In this document: positions 2,819-59,793 of the stretch, one piece after another
How the letters are laid out: each line of letters starts with the position of its first letter
Numbering within the stretch: the first letter of the stretch is position 1
Assembly: GCF_015644665.1 (NCBI RefSeq)
Contig: NZ_JADOBQ010000002.1
Location: 890,931-954,930 of the forward strand
Source: Roseobacter sp. MH60115
GTDB taxonomy: Bacteria; Pseudomonadota; Alphaproteobacteria; Rhodobacterales; Rhodobacteraceae
Reading direction: 5' to 3'
DNA: 64,000 bases
Program-made: the position numbers and the translations under genes
Notes under the pieces: model-generated
The model's database searches: none
What the model was told of the DNA's origin: nothing
Seen by the model: the letters and a program-made list of their open reading frames with translations, nothing else

Positions 2819-4048
2819 TTACCCGCGATATTTGGACAGGATCATCGATCCGTTTGTGCCGCCGAACCCGAAGGAGTTTGTCATCACCGAATCGAGCCCG
2901 GCATTCTCGACAAGTTCTGTGGCGATCTCCGAGGGCTCAAAGGCGGGGTCCAGCGTTTCGACGTTGATCGATGGGGCGATGAAATCGTCCTTGAGCATCA
3001 GCAGACAATAGATGGCTTCCTGCGCGCCCGCAGCCCCCTGGCTGTGCCCGGTCATCGATTTCGTCGAACTCACAGGCGGTTGGGTCAACCCCTCGAAGGC
3101 GCGGCGCACGGCCTCGATCTCGGGCTGATCGCCCGCAGGCGTGCTGGTGCCATGGGCGTTGATGTAGCTGACGCTGCGCCCGTGGGGCAGCGTTTCCAGG
3201 GCCAGTTGCATCGCGCGTCCACCGCCTTCGCCGGAGGGCGCGACCATGTCGTGCCCGTCGGAGGTGGCCGCGTAACCGGTGACTTCGGCGTAGATATGCG
3301 CGCCGCGGGCCAGCGCATGCTCCAGCTCTTCCAGCACCACCATGCCGCCGCCGCCGGAGATCACGAAACCATCGCGGTTCGCATCGAAGGCGCGCGAGGC
3401 CTTGTCGGGGGTGTCGTTGTACTTGCTGCTCATCGCGCCCATGGCGTCAAAGAGGCAGGACAGCGTCCAGTCGAGCTCTTCCCCGCCGCCCGCAAACATC
3501 ACGTCTTGCTTGCCGAGCATAATCTGTTCGGCCGCGTTGCCAATGCAATGCAAAGAGGTCGAACAGGCCGAGGTGATCGAATAATTGATACCTTTGATCT
3601 TATAAGCTGTGGATAAGTTGGCACTGACGGTCGAGGACATACATTTCGGCACGGCGAAGGGACCGATGCGTTTCGTGGCACCTGTGTCCTTGACGACCGT
3701 GTGGGCCGTCAACATAGCGCTGGTTGAGGGCCCACCCGACCCGGCAACAAGGCCGGTGCGCGGATGGGAGACGACGTCCTCACCGAGACCTGCATCCTGA
3801 ATCGCCTGATCCATCGCGATATAGGCATAGGCCGCACCCGGCCCCATGAACCGCAGCGTGCGTTTGTCGATGTGTTCCGCCACATCGAGCTTGAGCGTGC
3901 CCGCGACCCGGCTGCGGAACCCATGCTCTGCCATCTCGTCACTGGCGACGATGCCGCTGGTGCCGGATTTGAGCGAGGATGTGACCTCTTCGGCATTGTT
4001 TCCGATGGATGAGACGATCCCCAACCCTGTCACGACGACGCGGCGCAT
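2819..4048 (-). CDS. fabB: beta-ketoacyl-ACP synthase I
   Basis: 409 residues. It is a thiolase-fold condensing enzyme with the nucleophile in [10 protein letters not shown] (Cys162). The two histidine motifs follow: [11 protein letters not shown] and [12 protein letters not shown]. FabB extends cis-3-decenoyl-ACP and so commits chains to the unsaturated branch. Pairing with fabA supports FabB rather than FabF. The reading frame is open up to 4156, but AAGGAG sits 7 bases before ATG 4048 (protein begins [10 protein letters not shown]), which fixes the start. It is 25 bases downstream of fabA. Confidence 0.96.
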
Positions 4049-53269: not shown

Positions 53270-53560
53270 ATGTTGTTTCGCGCTCTTGCTCTCCTCACAC
53301 TGGCGGTCCCATCCGCAGCACAGGCCTCCCCGATCGGAGACGTTCTCTGCGCGCCGTCAGAGGAGTTGCGCGACAGGCTTACACTTCAGTACGGCAGTGC
53401 GCGGCAGGCCAGCGGGCTGCGCGGGCGGGAGCAGGTGATGGAGGTCTGGACGGATCAGCGCGGCGATTGGACGATGGTTGTGCGCTATGCGTCAGGCACG
53501 TCGTGCATCGTTGCGATGGGCGAACACTGGACGGATTTCGGTCCACATGATCCCGCTTAA
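53270..53560 (+). CDS. small secreted protein of unknown function
   Basis: 96 residues. A signal peptide (LFRALALLTLAVPSAAQA, cut before SPIG) is followed by about 77 residues with two cysteines (DVLCAPS and TSCIVA) that could pair. VMEVWTDQRGDWTMVVRYASG forms a probable beta hairpin. No family name is known to me. It converges with the next gene with a 4-base overlap. Confidence 0.65.
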   Translation: MLFRALALLTLAVPSAAQASPIGDVLCAPSEELRDRLTLQYGSARQASGLRGREQVMEVWTDQRGDWTMVVRYASGTSCIVAMGEHWTDFGPHDPA

Positions 53561-53799
53561 CCTGATGCCGCGCGGCGCAGGTCAGCGACGGTTTCGGCAT
53601 TCCGGCGTTCCCACGCTTTGAAATTCTGATAGGCACTTTGGGGATGCGCTGCGCCATCCATCCCAGGTTCGGTGAAATACTCTTTGACGTCCTGGTAATG
53701 CGCCATGCATTCCATGACTTCTGAATGATCGAGCGCACGTGTCGCAGCAACTGCATCACAGCCGTAGTACAGCAGCAGAACCGAGAGGAATTCAGTCAT
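53557..53799 (-). CDS. hypothetical small protein
   Basis: 80 residues from ATG 53799, supported by GAAGGTGAAG upstream. A hydrophobic N-terminus (TEFLSVLLLYYGCDAVAA) may be a signal or anchor. It is followed by a helical, charged region (SEVMECMAHYQDVKEYF, FKAWERRNAETVADLRR). No family recognised. Confidence 0.6.
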   Translation of the reverse strand: MTEFLSVLLLYYGCDAVAATRALDHSEVMECMAHYQDVKEYFTEPGMDGAAHPQSAYQNFKAWERRNAETVADLRRAASG

Positions 53800-53917
53800 T
53801 GTCTTCACCTTCGACGGCAAAGATACGCCATCCATGGCAAACAATGTGTAAACGGCGCGTTTGCCGACGGCCGACCTGCTGGCCGCCCGCTTGAAAAGGC
53901 CGCTTTATGTCAGAATG

Positions 53918-54124
53918 TTAGAGCAGCTTGAGATCACTCGCCATCTGCCGTCCATCGCGTCCTTCGGACAGCTCGAAGCTGACTTTTTGATCGTCGGCCA
54001 GGCCGGTCAACCCGGACCTTTCAACCGCTGAGATATGTACAAACACATCTGATCCACCGCCTTCTGGGGCGATGAAGCCATAACCTTTTGTGGTGTTAAA
54101 CCACTTCACGGTGCCGTTTGGCAT
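53918..54124 (-). CDS. cold-shock protein (CspA family)
   Basis: 68 residues, one OB-fold cold-shock domain with intact RNP motifs: GTVKWFNTTKGYGFIAP and SDVFVHISAVE. It is an RNA chaperone. AAAGGAGG lies 11 bases before the ATG. The 190-base upstream gap may contain a long cold-responsive leader, but no structure was resolved. Confidence 0.94.
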   Translation of the reverse strand: MPNGTVKWFNTTKGYGFIAPEGGGSDVFVHISAVERSGLTGLADDQKVSFELSEGRDGRQMASDLKLL

Positions 54125-54314
54125 CAGTCCCGTGCCTCCTTTGTATTGCCTGACCGCCCCAGCGCTTCCGGAGCAGCTTGTTCGTGCGGCCAGTTTGATC
54201 GCAAAAATCAGACCAGCTACCCTTTAAGAGATTGCCCTTCGCGTGTAAAAATCAAGCGAAACGGGGCGAAACGCGACGATTTCACCCCCGAATTATCGGA
54301 TTTGTGAGTAATTG

Positions 54315-54632
54315 ATGCGACTATATGGATTGAAAAACTGCGACACCTGCCGTAAAGCGCTGAAAGCCTTGCCCAAAGCACAGCTCGTGGATGTCCGCGC
54401 AGAGGGTGTGCCGGAGGAGGTTTTGACGGCTGCTTTAGCGCATTTTGGCGACGCTTTGATCAACACGCGCTCGACGACCTGGCGCGGGATGGACGAGGCG
54501 GAAAGGAACAGGCCACCTCTGGAACAGCTACAGGCACATCCCAGCTTGATGAAGCGGCCCCTGATCGTGACGGGGGCCGATATGCATCTGGGATGGAGCA
54601 AGGACACGCAGGCGGCGCTGGGGGCCGCCTGA
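54315..54632 (+). CDS. ArsC/Spx-fold reductase-like protein
   Basis: 105 residues, thioredoxin-like ArsC fold. MRLYGLKNCDTCRKALKAL contains Cys9 with a second Cys at position 12. SLMKRPLIVTGADMHLG is the conserved cis-Pro region. YffB-like proteins of this group are not proven arsenate reductases; a glutathione-dependent thiol function is more likely. A TTG three bases upstream is in frame. It converges on the DoxX gene. Confidence 0.82.
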   Translation: MRLYGLKNCDTCRKALKALPKAQLVDVRAEGVPEEVLTAALAHFGDALINTRSTTWRGMDEAERNRPPLEQLQAHPSLMKRPLIVTGADMHLGWSKDTQAALGAA

Positions 54633-54637
54633 GCCGA

Positions 54638-55186
54638 TCAGGCGGCGGGTGTGCGTTTGCGCAGGGCGTTGTCCAATGACAGGGGGCCGGCACCTTTGAT
54701 GACCAGAACCAGCAGGACAAAGACCCAGAAACTGCGCTGATCGAGGATCACGCTGTCCGGGAAGCGATCAAACCACGCGCCGAAGGTTTCCTTGTGCTCC
54801 AACCCGCCGTGACCAAAAAGATCGGTGAGGGATTGCACGACGACAAAGCCGATCATCCCGAGGGCGGAAAGACGGGTGAGCAGGCCGATGACAATCAGCG
54901 CCGGCAGGATGAATTCAGCCCATGTGCCTGCGACAACGACGGCCCAATGGAACACTGACAGTTGAGAGGTGTCGTAGGTGACGGCCTCCATCACCTTGGG
55001 AAAAATCTGGGCGTAGGCCCCGACGGAGGGTTGAAATAGGCCCATGAACCCCTCTCCGAGTTTGGTGAGCCCGGACACCCAGAAATACATGAGCAAAGTG
55101 CCCGCAAAGACCAGCCGCGCCAATGTCGCAAGCAGCCAGTCCGCCTGCGACAGACGGTGTGTCACCGAAGCATAAAGAGAGATCAT
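54638..55186 (-). CDS. DoxX-family membrane protein of the bufferin operon
   Basis: 182 residues with four to five membrane helices (residues ~20-40, ~80-105, ~110-130, ~150-170). The DoxX landmark RLVFAGTLLMYFWVSGLTKL is present. It begins directly after the bufC stop. DoxX-like proteins commonly close bufferin and related DUF692 operons; a redox or export-support role at the inner membrane is inferred. Confidence 0.85.
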   Translation of the reverse strand: MISLYASVTHRLSQADWLLATLARLVFAGTLLMYFWVSGLTKLGEGFMGLFQPSVGAYAQIFPKVMEAVTYDTSQLSVFHWAVVVAGTWAEFILPALIVIGLLTRLSALGMIGFVVVQSLTDLFGHGGLEHKETFGAWFDRFPDSVILDQRSFWVFVLLVLVIKGAGPLSLDNALRKRTPAA

Positions 55187-55942
55187 CTAGCTGTCCTTTG
55201 TCTTGTATTCAGTCAGGGCGCAGGTTTGCAAAGCCTGCGAAAGGGATGTGGCAAGGTCAAAGGCGGGGTGCGCCGCGAGCGCTGCCTCATGCGCATCGCC
55301 AAGCGTTCGACCGATTTGCAGGTTTTCCAGCCATACCGCCGCGCCATCTGAAAGCAGATGGGGGGCAGGGTCAAATCCCGGTCGCGTGATCAGCACGTCC
55401 TGCGCCACCGCGCGCGGTTTCGGCGCGCCGGCTTCGTTGTTGACCCGCCAGATATCGTAAAGCGGCCAGGCGGACCTGACGATCTGCGCGGCGGGCGCCA
55501 GTGACAGCCGTATCTGGACAAGCTCCTGCGGATCACACTGGAAAGTGTCCGCTGGTACGGGGGATGCATCCGCCGCGTGATAAGACCGTCTGAGCGCCAG
55601 ATCCAACCGCGCGCAGTCGGGGAGGTAGCCAATGTGCTGGAGCGGGGCAAAGCTCTCCAGAAACGCGGGCAGCTTTTCCCCGTAGTGCATCATCAGCGGA
55701 GAGGCCGGTGGGTGCGCACGGACATAGACAGCGGCCAGCCTGTCGAAGGTCTGGGCCCCCAACAGTTTGTGCAGCAAGGGAAACGCCGTGCGGAGCGCCT
55801 CTGTCAGCGATACCACCACGTTATTTCGATAGACGGAAAAGCGGCGGCCCGCAGGGGCGGCATGGCCATCCAACAAGCCGTCGGGCACATCCTGCGCCGC
55901 ATCGAGCAGGGCGCTTCGAAATGTGGTTTGTGAGACTGTCAT
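55187..55942 (-). CDS. bufC: DUF2063 partner protein of the MNIO enzyme (BufC-like)
   Basis: 251 residues. The N-terminal domain is DUF2063 ([20 protein letters not shown], then [10 protein letters not shown] and [13 protein letters not shown]), followed by a strand-rich C-terminal domain. Such proteins bind the precursor peptide and present it to the DUF692 enzyme. It overlaps bufB by 4 bases (ATGA) and abuts the DoxX gene, so expression is coupled. It is cytoplasmic and has no enzymatic motif. Confidence 0.88.
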
Positions 55943-56793
55943 TTGACCAGGGCAAGTGCCCGTGCTGCCCGCTCGGTTTCGCTGCGCAACACCGGCCAGT
56001 CGGGGACTTCATTGTCCCATTCTACCAGAACGGGGCGCGCGCCGGATTTGGCGAGTGTCAGGTCCAGCAGCGCCCAGACGGGATCATCTACCGGTTTGCC
56101 ATGGCTGTCGATCAGCAAGGGGGCGCCGTGATCGTCGACTTCTTCGTCATGGCCGCCCACATGTATTTCGCCAACGGCCTGCAGCGGGAAGGCATCGATG
56201 TAGTCGGATGCTGACATCCCGAGATTAGTGGCGGAGATGAAAACGTTGTTGACGTCCAGCAAGAGACCACAGCCGGTGCGCCGCACCAATTCGGTCAGAA
56301 AATCGGTCTCCGACAAGGTGCTTTCGGCAAAGGCCAGATAGCTTGACGGGTTCTCCAGCAACATCTGGCACCCAAGCGTTGATTGCACCTGATCGATGTG
56401 ATCGGCCACGCGGGTCAGCGTGTCGTTTGTGTAGGGCAGGGGCAGCAGGTCATTCAGGAACTCCGCGCCATGGGTGGACCACGCCAGATGCTCGGAAAAG
56501 CTTGCCGGTTTGGACCAACCGACAAGGGTCTTCAGCCGCGCCAGGTGCTCCGCGTCCAACTTGTCCTCCCCGCCAATGCTGAGGCCGACGCCATGCACAG
56601 ACAGCGCAAACTGTTCGGACAGCGCCCGCAACTGCGCCAGGGGACGCCCGCCATCGCCCATGTAGTTTTCCGCGTGGATCTCGATCCATTCGACCGCACC
56701 GGGATCTGCGCGCAATTCCGCAAAATGCTGGGGTTTGTATCCGACGCCGGGCGCGGGCGGCAGGTGTTCAAAACGAGGGGAGTTGTCTAACAT
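55939..56793 (-). CDS. bufB: DUF692 multinuclear non-heme iron oxidative enzyme (BufB-like)
   Basis: 284 residues, a TIM barrel. Family metal ligands are visible: His67 (SVHGVG), Glu101-His102 ([10 protein letters not shown]), Glu147-Asn148 (LENPSSYLA), Asp180-Asn182 (LLLDVNNVF), His211 and His215 (IHVGGH), His231 and Glu258. MNIO enzymes oxidise cysteine in RiPP precursors, in bufferins to thiooxazole. The adjacent DUF2282 precursor with four cysteines is the expected substrate. All ligands look intact, so it should be active. Confidence 0.92.
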
Positions 56794-56838
56794 CTTGGCC
56801 CTCCGACGTCATGTGTCCCGAGGCGTTTTCAGGGGGAC

Positions 56839-56868
56839 CCCACCCGGCGATCTGCATCACCGGGTGGG
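56839..56868 (-). terminator. GC-rich hairpin between bufA1 and bufB
   Basis: CCCACCCGG and CCGGGTGGG form a perfect 9-bp stem with a 12-base loop, about 20 bases after the precursor stop and 45 before bufB. No T-tract follows, so it is more likely an mRNA-stabilising or partial-termination element than a full terminator. Confidence 0.6.
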
Positions 56869-56887
56869 ATCAATTTCGTGTGCATGC

Positions 56888-57190
56888 TTATGCAGGCAGA
56901 TCGCGGCTCAGCTCTTCCAGCGAACCTTGGCGCGGTGTGCCGTCTGCCAGGTCGGGCAGTTCGATTTCAGCGCATGTGCCAGCATCGACCAGCGTCCAGG
57001 CGTTGCCTTGGTAATCAACGGTGGAGGTGCCCGCGCAGGTTGTGCCGGGGCCGGCCGCGCAGTCATTGGCACCTGCCAGCGAAACGCCGTAGCATTTTTC
57101 CTTCGCAGCCGCTTCGGCTGTTGTCACCTGTGCAGTCAGGGCAGCAGCGACAGCACCGGCAATTGCGACTGTTTTCATTGTGTTGGACAT
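56888..57190 (-). CDS. bufA1: bufferin-type RiPP precursor (DUF2282)
   Basis: 100 residues. A Sec signal peptide ([20 protein letters not shown] region, cut near AEA-AAK, residues ~24-28) precedes the conserved core [15 protein letters not shown] and GTTCAG. The four cysteines are at 33, 44, 52 and 73. Bufferins are periplasmic copper-buffering peptides whose cysteines are modified in the cytosol before export. The tail after Cys73 (27 residues) is acidic and ends [11 protein letters not shown]. It heads bufA1-bufB-bufC-doxX. Confidence 0.88.
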
Positions 57191-57323
57191 GATTTCATTC
57201 CCTTTTTGAGGACCATCGCGGTCAATGATAGGGCAAAATCTAGACGTTGGGAAACGGACTTTCCACTCACGAGGTCGTGCCTCACGCAGCCGTCAGAAGA
57301 CGTTGGGTAGACAGTGGCAAAAA

Positions 57324-57348
57324 CACGCCATTCTTCACGGAATGTTAC
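57324..57348 (-). promoter_or_regulatory. candidate ECF-sigma promoter of the bufferin operon
   Basis: Read leftwards, GTAAC (57348-57344) is followed by 16 bases and CGTG (57327-57324), an ECF-type -35/-10 pair. A TATCAT hexamer nearer the gene could serve a housekeeping promoter instead. CCCAACGTCT (minus strand) occurs twice in the leader, at 57307-57298 and 57251-57242. Confidence 0.35.
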
Positions 57349-57389
57349 AAAATCGGTCCCCGCGGGCAGCTGTGCGGCATGCGGGGGCC
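57349..57389 (-). terminator. thrS terminator
   Basis: Read leftwards, GGCCCCCGC and GCGGGGACC (57389-57381 with 57363-57355) form a 9-bp stem with one wobble and a 17-base loop, then GATTTTG. It lies just after the thrS stop. Confidence 0.6.
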
Positions 57390-57396
57390 GGAATTG

Positions 57397-59355
57397 TTAC
57401 AAAAGATCAGGCGGCGTTGCTTCGCGCGCCAGTGTTTGTGTCAGGCTGTCCAGCGCTTCGACGCTTGTGCGTTTTTCGCCCAGACGCCGGAGGGTCACAG
57501 TGCGTTCTTCGACCTCGCGGGCGCCGACGGCGAGGATAACCGGCACCTTGCCCACGGAGTGTTCGCGGACCTTGTAGTTGATCTTCTCGTTGCGCACATC
57601 GGCTTCGGCGCGGACACCGGCAGCCTTCAAAGTCGCAACAACCTCATGCACATAGTCATCGGCGTCGGAGATGATCGAGGCGACGACGACCTGACGCGGT
57701 GCGAGCCAGAACGGCAGTTTGCCCGCCGAATTCTCAATCAGGATGCCGATGAAGCGCTCGAACGACCCTAGGCAGGCGCGGTGCAGCATGTAGGGTCGAT
57801 GTTTCGCGCCGTCTTCACCTACGTAGGTGGCGCTCAGACGCTCGGGCAGGTTGGGGTCCACCTGGAAGGTGCCGCACTGCCACTCCCGACCAATCGCGTC
57901 GGTCAGTTTGAAGTCCAGTTTCGGCCCGTAGAACGCGCCCTCTCCTTCGTCGAGGGTATAGGGATGTCCGGTTGCCTTGATCGCGTTTTCCAGCGCGGCC
58001 TCGACGTGATCCCAGCTCTCCTCGGACCCCACGCGCTTTTCAGGCCGGGTGGCGAACATGATCTCGAAGCTTTCGAACCCCAGATCCTTGTAGACCGACG
58101 ACAGGTAGGTGATGAACGCCGCGCATTCCGCCTCGATCTGGTCTTCACGGCAGAAGATATGGCCATCGTCCTGGGTAAAACCGCGCACCCGCATGATCCC
58201 GTGCAGCGCGCCAGACGGCTCATAGCGATTGCATGAGCCGAATTCGGCCATGCGCAGCGGCAGATCGCGATAGGATTTCAGGCCCTGGTTGAAGATCTGC
58301 ACGTGGCAGGGGCAGTTCATCGGTTTCAGCGCGTTGATCGCCTTTTCCCGCGCGTGCTCCTCGTCGACCTCGACGATGAACATATGCTCCTGATACTTGT
58401 CCCAGTGGCCAGACGCCTCCCAGAGCTTGCGGTCCACGACCTGTGGGGTGTTCACCTCCTGATAGCCTGCCGCGCGCTGTTTGCGGCGCATGTAGTCCTG
58501 CAGGGTGGTGTAGATCGACCAGCCGTTTGCGTGCCAGAAGACCTGTCCCGGCGCCTCTTCCTGCATGTGAAAGAGATCCATCTCGCGACCCAGCTTGCGG
58601 TGGTCACGCTTGGCGGCTTCCTCCAGCATGTTGAGATGCGCCCGCAGCTTTTCCTTGCCGGTGAAAGCCACGCCGTAGATACGTTGCAGCATCGCGCGGT
58701 CGCTGTCGCCGCGCCAGTAGGCCCCGGCGATGGACATCAGCTTGAAGGCGTCGCCGGGCACCTGCCCGGTATGCTGCAGGTGCGGCCCCCGGCAAAGATC
58801 CTGCCAGTCACCGTGCCAATACATGCGCAGCGGCTCGTCCCCCGGAATGGCGTCGATGAGTTCCACCTTGTAAGGCTCGCCCGCCTCTTCGTAATGCTTG
58901 ATCGCGCGTGCGCGGTCCCAGACCTCGGTGCGGACGGGATCACGCTTGTTGATGATGTCCTTCATCTTCTTTTCGATGAGGCCCAGGTCTTCCGGTGTGA
59001 ACGGTTCAGCCCGATCAAAATCATAGTACCAGCCATCCTTGATCACCGGGCCGATGGTGACCTGGGTGTCGGGCCAGATTTCCTGCACGGCGCGGGCCAT
59101 GATATGCGCCAGATCGTGGCGCACCAGCTCGTTGGCCTGCTCTTCGTCCGCCATGGTGTGAATGGCGATCTCGGCGTCCTCTTCGATGGGCCAGGCGAGA
59201 TCGTAGTGCACCCCGTTCACGGTGGCGGAGATCGCCTTTTTGCGCAGCGAGGTGGAGATGCTGGCGGCCACATCGCCTGCGGTGACGCCCGCCTCGAAGC
59301 TGCGCGCATTGCCATCGGGAAAGGTGAGAGAGATTGCGTTGTCTTTGGGAGCCAT
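57397..59355 (-). CDS. thrS: threonyl-tRNA synthetase
   Basis: 652 residues from ATG 59355, close to the 642 of E. coli. A TGS domain (residues ~1-65), the editing domain with [16 protein letters not shown] and the His/Cys zinc-like site, then the class II catalytic core containing [10 protein letters not shown] and the motif 2 loop ([15 protein letters not shown]) and motif 3 ([18 protein letters not shown]), and an anticodon-binding domain. The frame is open to 59742, but that extension lacks family similarity. Confidence 0.97.
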
Positions 59356-59479
59356 CTGCTGGCACTCCTCGTCGGTTTGGCGCCTACGAGACGCCCGGTT
59401 GCGGGTTATGTGAGCGTGCTGATGACGCCTGGGGGCAGATGTGTCAAGCAGCGCTATCCAATGTATACCCAAGAATACG

Positions 59480-59507
59480 TTGACTGCGACATCTCGTATG
59501 CTAAATC
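59480..59507 (+). promoter_or_regulatory. candidate promoter of the small gene at 59548
   Basis: TTGACT (59480-59485) and TAAATC (59502-59507) are 16 bases apart in a locally AT-rich stretch 40 bases before the start codon. Confidence 0.4.
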
Positions 59508-59547
59508 CGACATGTACCCAAATGGTAAAATGACCGGAAGGACCGTC

Positions 59548-59793
59548 ATGCCGCGCTATAACCGCACATTCGAATTGAGCATCCATGATGTCGATCTGAT
59601 CGAAGAATCTCTGCGGGCCCGTGGTCGGGAATTGTGCCGGATGCGCCGTGCTTTGTCGGAGGAAAATCCTGCGGATCTGCAGTCGATCACCGTCATCGAA
59701 GCGGATCAGCGGGAAAATGAAGAACTGCTTGGGCGTCTCCACAACCAGAAGATTTTTTACCGCCCCGGCGCCGCCCCCTACGTTAGTGGGTAA
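59548..59793 (+). CDS. small conserved hypothetical protein
   Basis: 81 residues from ATG 59548, preceded by GGAAGGA. It is charged and helical: [23 protein letters not shown], then two helices rich in Arg and Glu and a Tyr-Pro-Gly end. No family known to me. The ATG at 59530 is in frame but has no ribosome site. A recognisable promoter lies in front. Confidence 0.65.

Follow-up and report, generated by a model that had tools for sequence, protein, structure and literature searches.

A Buf1-type bufferin operon in Roseobacter and a candidate CenR-type twin box upstream of it across the Rhodobacteraceae

The stretch of DNA considered here (the window) comprises 64,000 nucleotides (nt) of the genome of Roseobacter sp. 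MH60115, a member of the Rhodobacteraceae (contig NZ_JADOBQ010000002.1, positions 890,931 to 954,930 of the forward strand). On its minus strand it carries a Buf1 bufferin operon, which encodes a predicted periplasmic copper-binding peptide, and upstream of the precursor gene bufA lies a conserved 33-bp element, made of two tandem boxes that resemble the binding site of the OmpR-type regulator CenR and that are discussed below as candidate sites of CenK-CenR control (Table 1). The initial annotation had read a complete bufferin operon at 54638-57190, and this reading holds, with four open genes at these coordinates, based on the open reading frames (ORFs) of the window and on Pfam and NCBIfam models. 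The genes for the MNIO enzyme and the DUF2063 protein overlap by 4 nt, those for the DUF2063 and DoxX proteins abut, and a gap of 94 nt separates bufA from the MNIO gene. All four products match their Pfam families above the cut-offs, DUF2282 at 1.9e-24 (PF10048, 85.9 bits, with a cut-off of 22.4), MbnB_TglH_ChrH at 4.8e-100, DUF2063 at 2.3e-25 (PF09836) and DoxX at 2.9e-6 (PF07681). In the NCBIfam search, the enzyme is recognized as MNIO_BufB (NF050167, 363 bits, with a cut-off of 310), no model covers the precursor, and HvfC and HvfX are matched only at scores below their cut-offs, by the DUF2063 and DoxX proteins, respectively. Genome-wide, the MNIO and the DUF2282 genes are each present in one copy, and the nearest named BufB, 98% identical, belongs to an uncultured Roseobacter.

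The assignment of the product as a bufferin is supported by the family models, by the gene order and by the four-cysteine pattern of the precursor. The set of genes is identical to the core of the Buf1 operons in PMC12452194. The cysteines reported initially are in place (Cys 33, 44, 52 and 73), and each of the 145 precursors detected by pattern in the related loci possesses exactly four cysteines from the first one on, with the same spacing (145/145), the search pattern itself already requiring part of this spacing and 13 of the 158 loci, undetected by the pattern, being excluded. The N-terminus of the precursor, as read by eye and not by a predictor, is hydrophobic and alanine-rich, resembling a signal peptide. 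The cysteines fit the rule described for Buf1, in which modification concerns the central pair and a disulphide links the outer pair (PMC12452194).

The metal ligands of the DUF692 enzyme, whose loss would have spoken against the initial assignment, are retained in an alignment made via 3BWW. Histidines, aspartates and glutamates of further conserved blocks (H67, H102, E147, D180, H211 and E258) agree with 3BWW, and we take these residues to have roles in MNIO metal sites 1 and 2. As to site 3, residues N182, D229 and H231 of the window enzyme correspond to N175, D242 and H244 of HvfB, the step from HvfB numbering to 3BWW numbering being our own count, and alanine variants of these HvfB residues are inactive (PMC13419390).

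Table 1. Features of the bufferin locus, in window positions.
Feature	Positions	Strand	Description
bufA1	56888-57190	-	bufferin precursor, DUF2282, 100 aa
bufB1	55939-56793	-	MNIO (DUF692) bufferin maturase, 284 aa
bufC1	55187-55942	-	DUF2063 protein, 251 aa, predicted enzyme partner
bufD	54638-55186	-	DoxX-family membrane protein, 182 aa
33-bp element, TNACR-N4-YGTGA-NN-CACR-N4-YGTGA-NTGG	57263-57295	-	two tandem CenR-like boxes
CenR-like box 1, TGACGGCTGCGTGAG	57281-57295	-	
CenR-like box 2, GCACGACCTCGTGAG	57266-57280	-	15 bp offset
inferred -10 hexamer, TAGATT	57237-57242	-	TANNNT at constant distance from the element in a 97-locus alignment
hairpin between bufA and bufB	56839-56868	-	strong; gap z -2.7 in the window
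hairpin in the 5' untranslated region, GACC-GCGAT-GGTC	57211-57223	-	small; relatives with similar hairpins seen by eye, uncounted

Of the 198 sampled genomes of the family (the own genome included, each from a different genus), 139 encode an MNIO, as do all of the 19 genomes of the genus (19/19). For the comparisons that follow, 158 loci were used, one from each of the 138 other matching genomes, one from an additional locus (G126:C57; here G, C and L numbers are our handles for genomes, contigs and loci), one from each of 18 further genomes of the genus, and the own locus, while weaker extra MNIO matches (G126:C29 and G062:C33) were excluded. The additional locus (L119) has no bufA and was kept out of the element counts, and L162, with 18 nt of upstream sequence, is scored as lacking the element in the set of 116 loci and is absent from the 115 loci mentioned below. 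The initial annotation had pointed to the position of the operon beside thrS: thrS is indeed located upstream, but this is not unusual, as 108 of the 158 homologous loci share the arrangement. With the MNIO gene so frequent among the genera and thrS so often upstream, the gene set must be seen as ordinary. For its regulation, which the initial annotation had left open, a specific candidate can be proposed.

The bufferin operons of Caulobacter are known to be controlled by SigF-NrsF. NrsF has no match in the genome of strain MH60115, the Caulobacter control being detected in the same search, and it is encoded in 29 of the 198 family genomes, in 16 of which, by our own reading of the coordinates, no more than a few kb separate it from the MNIO gene. 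The 33-bp element was first seen as a conserved block in the aligned regions upstream of bufA from the 19 genomes of the genus; in the window it is located 73-105 nt 5' of bufA. Our first regular expression for it matched 2 of 30 family loci, and a weight matrix was substituted. At a cut passed by 1% of shuffles, the refined matrix recognizes the element in all 19 genus loci (19/19), in 98 of the 116 family loci lacking NrsF, and in 4 of the 22 loci from NrsF-bearing genomes. As the matrix was refined on the same NrsF-lacking loci that it counts, the respective count with the unrefined, genus-only matrix is of note (94/116, at the same cut). At a stricter threshold of 15 bits, the element is present, outside of the genus, in 93/116 of the NrsF-lacking and in 2/22 of the NrsF-bearing loci, and all 16 of the NrsF-linked operons are without the twin element, scoring below even the looser cut. 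Likewise, in a second collection, which includes in part the same genomes, 78 of the 80 named loci exceed 15 bits. In the own genome, the full pattern has a single exact match, and the sole other match within three mismatches has three. A quick tree of BufB (154 rows, excluding four loci whose BufB is broken or short) reveals the control types as clustered, with 3 changes versus 14.4 for shuffled labels. The distance from the element to the start codon of bufA is also steady (median 112 nt, 5th-95th percentile 101-133, n=105), and the TANNNT sequence of the inferred -10 begins 21 nt past the element, which, with an assumed spacer of 17 nt, places the boxes next to the expected -35.

The box described for CenR of Rhodobacter sphaeroides is TGA-N8-TGA; it is reported to occur as single repeats, adjoining the -35 in 28 of 31 sites, and its targets as listed, mostly envelope or exported proteins, comprise among others an L,D-transpeptidase and cenR itself (PMC9275681). 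It was a regulator gene next to one of the sites in a pattern scan of the family that led to this system. Among the matches listed in that scan, five sites not associated with bufferin genes were examined. One (L197, from G171, 2440-2472) lies, as a twin box, upstream of an OmpR-type CenR-like gene, and another, in G112, upstream of a YkuD L,D-transpeptidase, and both kinds of genes are on the CenR target list. Two further sites (L198 and L199), found by eye to lie in coding frames, were set aside as chance, and the neighbours of the fifth (L200) had no Pfam name in the two frames tested.

A CenR matrix was built from the 31 R. sphaeroides sites of Table 1 of PMC9275681, independently of the window. 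The frequency matrix of the element correlates with it at 0.89 for offset 0 and at 0.75 for offset 15, and at 0.27 or less for 18 other offsets. Sites exceeding 10 bits with this matrix are found upstream of bufA in 16 of the 19 genus loci and in 65 of the 115 NrsF-absent loci; the means for 300 column-permuted matrices are 0.95 and 4.71, respectively, and none of the 300 attain the observed counts. At the same threshold, control regions inside bufB yield 0/19 and 2/115. The best match to the CenR matrix coincides with either of the two boxes in 18/19 of the genus and 91/115 of the NrsF-absent loci. What gives the match its strength is its conserved position and not the score of a single locus.

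A CenR-like OmpR-type regulator is encoded in the genome of strain MH60115 (G000:C14:47771-48454), with aspartates at D11-13, D51 and D56, as numbered for CenR, and a box of the same form, ACACGACCGCGTGAG, is present 84 nt before its start. The regulator is detected, at E <= 1e-90, in 180 of the 198 family genomes. All of the best 30 of these 180 orthologues have ACACG-N4-YGTGA 83-124 nt upstream, compared to 1 of 210 control windows, and in three of the 30 promoters the 14-base core of the cenR site of R. sphaeroides, ACACGAGCGCGTGA, is present without any change. One box is present in 28 of the 30 promoters. By homology, we infer that this regulator is CenR. Its presence also goes along with that of the element: of the genomes that are not NrsF-linked and have a completeness of 90% or more, 87 of the 103 with the regulator carry the element, compared to 1 of the 6 without it (Fisher p 0.0009, uncorrected for descent), and with no completeness filter 91/111 and 4/10, respectively, carry it (p 0.007, likewise uncorrected). 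The tolQ gene, a known CenR target, has as its best box here TGACAGCATAGTGAT (10.2 bits, at -102 from the start used), which is suggestive only, and in two other members of the family the best boxes upstream of tolQ score 2.4 and 4.6 bits.

A number of observations weigh against CenR control of the operon. Scored alone with the CenR matrix, the window attains 10.9 bits, as do 6.1% of the shuffles, and a cut at 95% of shuffles is exceeded in 8/19 genus loci, 65/115 NrsF-absent loci and 7/22 NrsF-bearing loci. The box of the own cenR scores 8.0 bits with the published matrix, behind another site at 8.3, and 4.8 bits when cenR is excluded from the training, the low score being due to its leading A. 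The identity of the regulator is based on residues named in the paper and on its promoter box, not on an alignment with the R. sphaeroides sequence, and in NCBIfam none of the best 25 of 100 models passes its cut-off and none is named CenR. Twenty of the 111 non-NrsF-linked loci of regulator-bearing genomes miss the element, some of them, by eye, through a change of one base in spacing, and one of the six fairly complete genomes devoid of the regulator (G158, 6% contaminated) retains it, a number that rises to 4 of 10 if the completeness filter is dropped. Table 1 of PMC9275681, in the part of that source available, lists no DUF692, DUF2282 or DoxX operon, and R. sphaeroides was not checked for possessing one; the bufferin operon is therefore only a predicted member of the CenR regulon. 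Finally, 8 of the 16 NrsF-linked loci carry one CenR-like site (permuted mean 0.5; 0/300 attain that number), and thus there is no clean either-or between the two inputs. This suggests that control by CenR may predate the twin box and extend beyond it. In NrsF-linked loci such as L013, L064 and L006, the single CenR-like box is found at about the same distance from bufA, a possible case of double control.

With these points considered, we still find it likely that the complete Buf1 operon, encoding a predicted periplasmic copper-binding peptide, is switched on by CenK-CenR via the two tandem boxes. Phosphorylated CenR (CenR~P) is predicted to bind boxes 1 and 2, directly 5' of the -35 region, and, as the comparative evidence suggests, would activate the transcription of bufABCD from there. 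The signal perceived by CenK may be envelope stress, given the known content of the regulon. Through the RNA hairpin that follows bufA, the precursor would be made in larger amounts than the enzymes. By homology with Buf1 of Caulobacter, BufB, together with BufC, would convert the central cysteines 44 and 52 into 5-thiooxazoles before export, cysteines 33 and 73 would form a disulphide, and the Sec-exported peptide would bind and buffer excess copper in the periplasm.

Of the competing explanations, the one that fares best, while in our view still rather unlikely, is that this is an ordinary bufferin operon whose element is the site of a different member of the OmpR family, for example a copper-sensing one, with a box resembling that of CenR. 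The genome does encode nine more near-full-length matches to the regulator (28-37% identity), the element is a doublet and the published CenR sites are reported as single (PMC9275681), and induction by copper is the known logic of the bufferin operon in Caulobacter (PMC8224329). However, the box agrees with the CenR matrix column by column, CenR being the only regulator so compared, it resembles the boxes of the cenR promoters in all 30 of the 30 examined, and its absence tends to coincide with the absence of CenR. A dedicated regulator encoded beside the relocated operons was also considered and rejected, as none specific to the NrsF-less class is found among the top 25 clusters of flanking ORFs at the 158 loci; these clusters mainly represent thrS with its overlapping frames, as well as genes of the ArsC-like and DUF4064-like kinds.

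A second alternative concerns the metal, namely that the peptide serves against another metal or stress (gold, cadmium, chromate or oxidants), copper being incidental, and this we consider improbable. In its favor, SigF-dependent genes that include a bufferin operon have been studied under chromium and cadmium (PMC3511200), the gig operons are named for gold (PMC12452194), and the known CenR regulon mostly concerns the cell envelope (PMC9275681). On the other hand, the founding Buf1 binds both Cu(I) and Cu(II) and helps growth in excess copper (PMC12452194), related thiooxazole peptides are linked to copper, and the Caulobacter operon was induced by copper in all the conditions tested (PMC8224329).

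Control of the SigF-NrsF type, as in Caulobacter, exerted by genes elsewhere in the genome, has very little to recommend it. The initial annotation had noted no extracytoplasmic function (ECF) sigma factor gene in the window, which we can corroborate: of the 18 matches to Sigma70_r4_2 (Pfam) in the genome, none falls within C12:890931-954930. These matches do mean that further sigma-factor-like genes are encoded elsewhere, and where NrsF is present in the family, it is often, in 16 genomes, near the MNIO gene. However, with NrsF absent from this genome, and with no SigF-like sequence (GTAACC-N16-CGAA) found within two mismatches between thrS and bufA, we rejected a SigF promoter. One SigF-like match with two mismatches does lie inside bufA, but the window total of 40 such matches, versus 35 expected, is at chance level.

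That the element belongs to the 3' end or terminator region of thrS and is unrelated to the bufferin genes is hardly credible: thrS is the upstream neighbour in 108/158 loci, but 13 of the 30 NrsF-absent loci without an upstream thrS keep the element at more than 15 bits, and it stands at a steady distance from the start of bufA, followed by a -10 element. A reading of the element as an RNA stem was rejected as well. Across 93 sites, the halves of the dyad show complementarity at roughly the frequency predicted for independent columns, the single excess being in the innermost pair of box 2 (55 vs 41 expected), and an Rfam search of 53500-58000 returned no family up to an E of 0.5. As the dyad halves display no clear covariation, the element more probably acts as a site in DNA than as a stem in RNA.

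The closest known system is the Buf1 operon of Caulobacter vibrioides, with its DUF2282, DUF692, hypothetical and DoxX genes (CCNA_03363-03366) located beside sigF and nrsF. The operon described here has the same four-gene core in the same order, with a four-cysteine DUF2282 precursor, an MNIO, a partner and a DoxX protein; unlike in Caulobacter, NrsF is absent from the genome, and CenR-type twin boxes are present in place of a SigF-like promoter. The CenK-CenR regulon of R. sphaeroides (PMC9275681) shares with it the TGA-N8-TGA box, a position that, by the inferred -10, would adjoin the -35, a CenR-like regulator with a box of its own, and targets that are mostly envelope or exported proteins, as the bufferin would be; it differs in that two tandem boxes 15 bp apart are found here and in that its Table 1, as far as available, does not include a bufferin operon.

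Hosts of the gig operons belong to other bacterial classes. These operons represent the same kind of cluster, called bufferin operons in PMC12452194, and differ in being named for induction by gold. The oxazolin (HvfA) and fontiphorin systems, whose products are proposed to be captophorins, likewise possess an MNIO and a DUF2063 partner and make 5-thiooxazole products, but their precursors are of the EGKCG type and not DUF2282, and the partner and DoxX proteins of the window fall below the cut-offs for HvfC and HvfX. As to a link between the two fields, literature searches found, among the matches listed, no paper joining CenR with DUF692, DUF2282, bufferin, MNIO or DoxX, and none combining DUF2282 with Rhodobacteraceae, most subscription papers being outside the coverage in both cases; papers matching CenR, copper and two-component systems barely mentioned copper, one occurrence being a microscopy grid.

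Overall, the chances seem to us slightly better than even that, throughout the Rhodobacteraceae, a copper-buffering, ribosomally synthesized and post-translationally modified peptide (RiPP) is part of the CenKR envelope regulon, with a tandem CenR box replacing SigF-NrsF, and that it acts as an envelope-protection factor made upon envelope disturbance. Most of the sampled family genomes that encode the enzyme lack NrsF, and a concrete candidate replacement can now be named, along with the coordinates of its boxes. If CenK-CenR control is real, copper buffering would be coupled to an essential system controlling cell division and the envelope, and the regulon of this essential envelope regulator would gain a post-translationally modified copper chelator, suggesting that damage by copper and damage to the envelope may be sensed through one pathway.

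Some features in and around the operon deserve mention. For the gap between bufA and bufB, 91 of 144 loci, and 10 of 19 in the genus, have a z lower than -2, and TTTT trails the hairpin in 4 of the 8 genus sequences listed; this hairpin is possibly a partial terminator or a stabilizer, giving an excess of the precursor over the enzymes. In L202 (G063), another twin element of the CenR type, deviating at one position, is located at 3220, between the end of bufA (3132) and the start of the MNIO gene (3307), and the enzyme gene there may therefore have a CenR-type promoter of its own. In one NrsF-linked genome (G149:C1:525482-526265), the MNIO gene is seemingly split into two frames.

Upstream, the thrS frame (57397-59742, minus strand, GTG start, 781 aa) begins far 5' of the TGS domain, its true start probably being Met130, and in the interval from the stop of thrS to the CenR-like boxes, at 57339-57352 on the minus strand, the sequence TTTTGTAACATTCC represents a TTGNAACA-like block shared by the majority of the 19 genus genomes. 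Downstream, a gene for an ArsC/Spx-like reductase (54312-54632, plus strand, TTG start) is convergent with the operon, and an ArsC-like frame is found in this position, on the opposite strand, in 20 of the 158 related loci. Another neighbour, encoding a small DUF4064-like membrane protein (below the Pfam cut-off), adjoins the operon in 35 of the 158 loci, mainly downstream and on the opposite strand.

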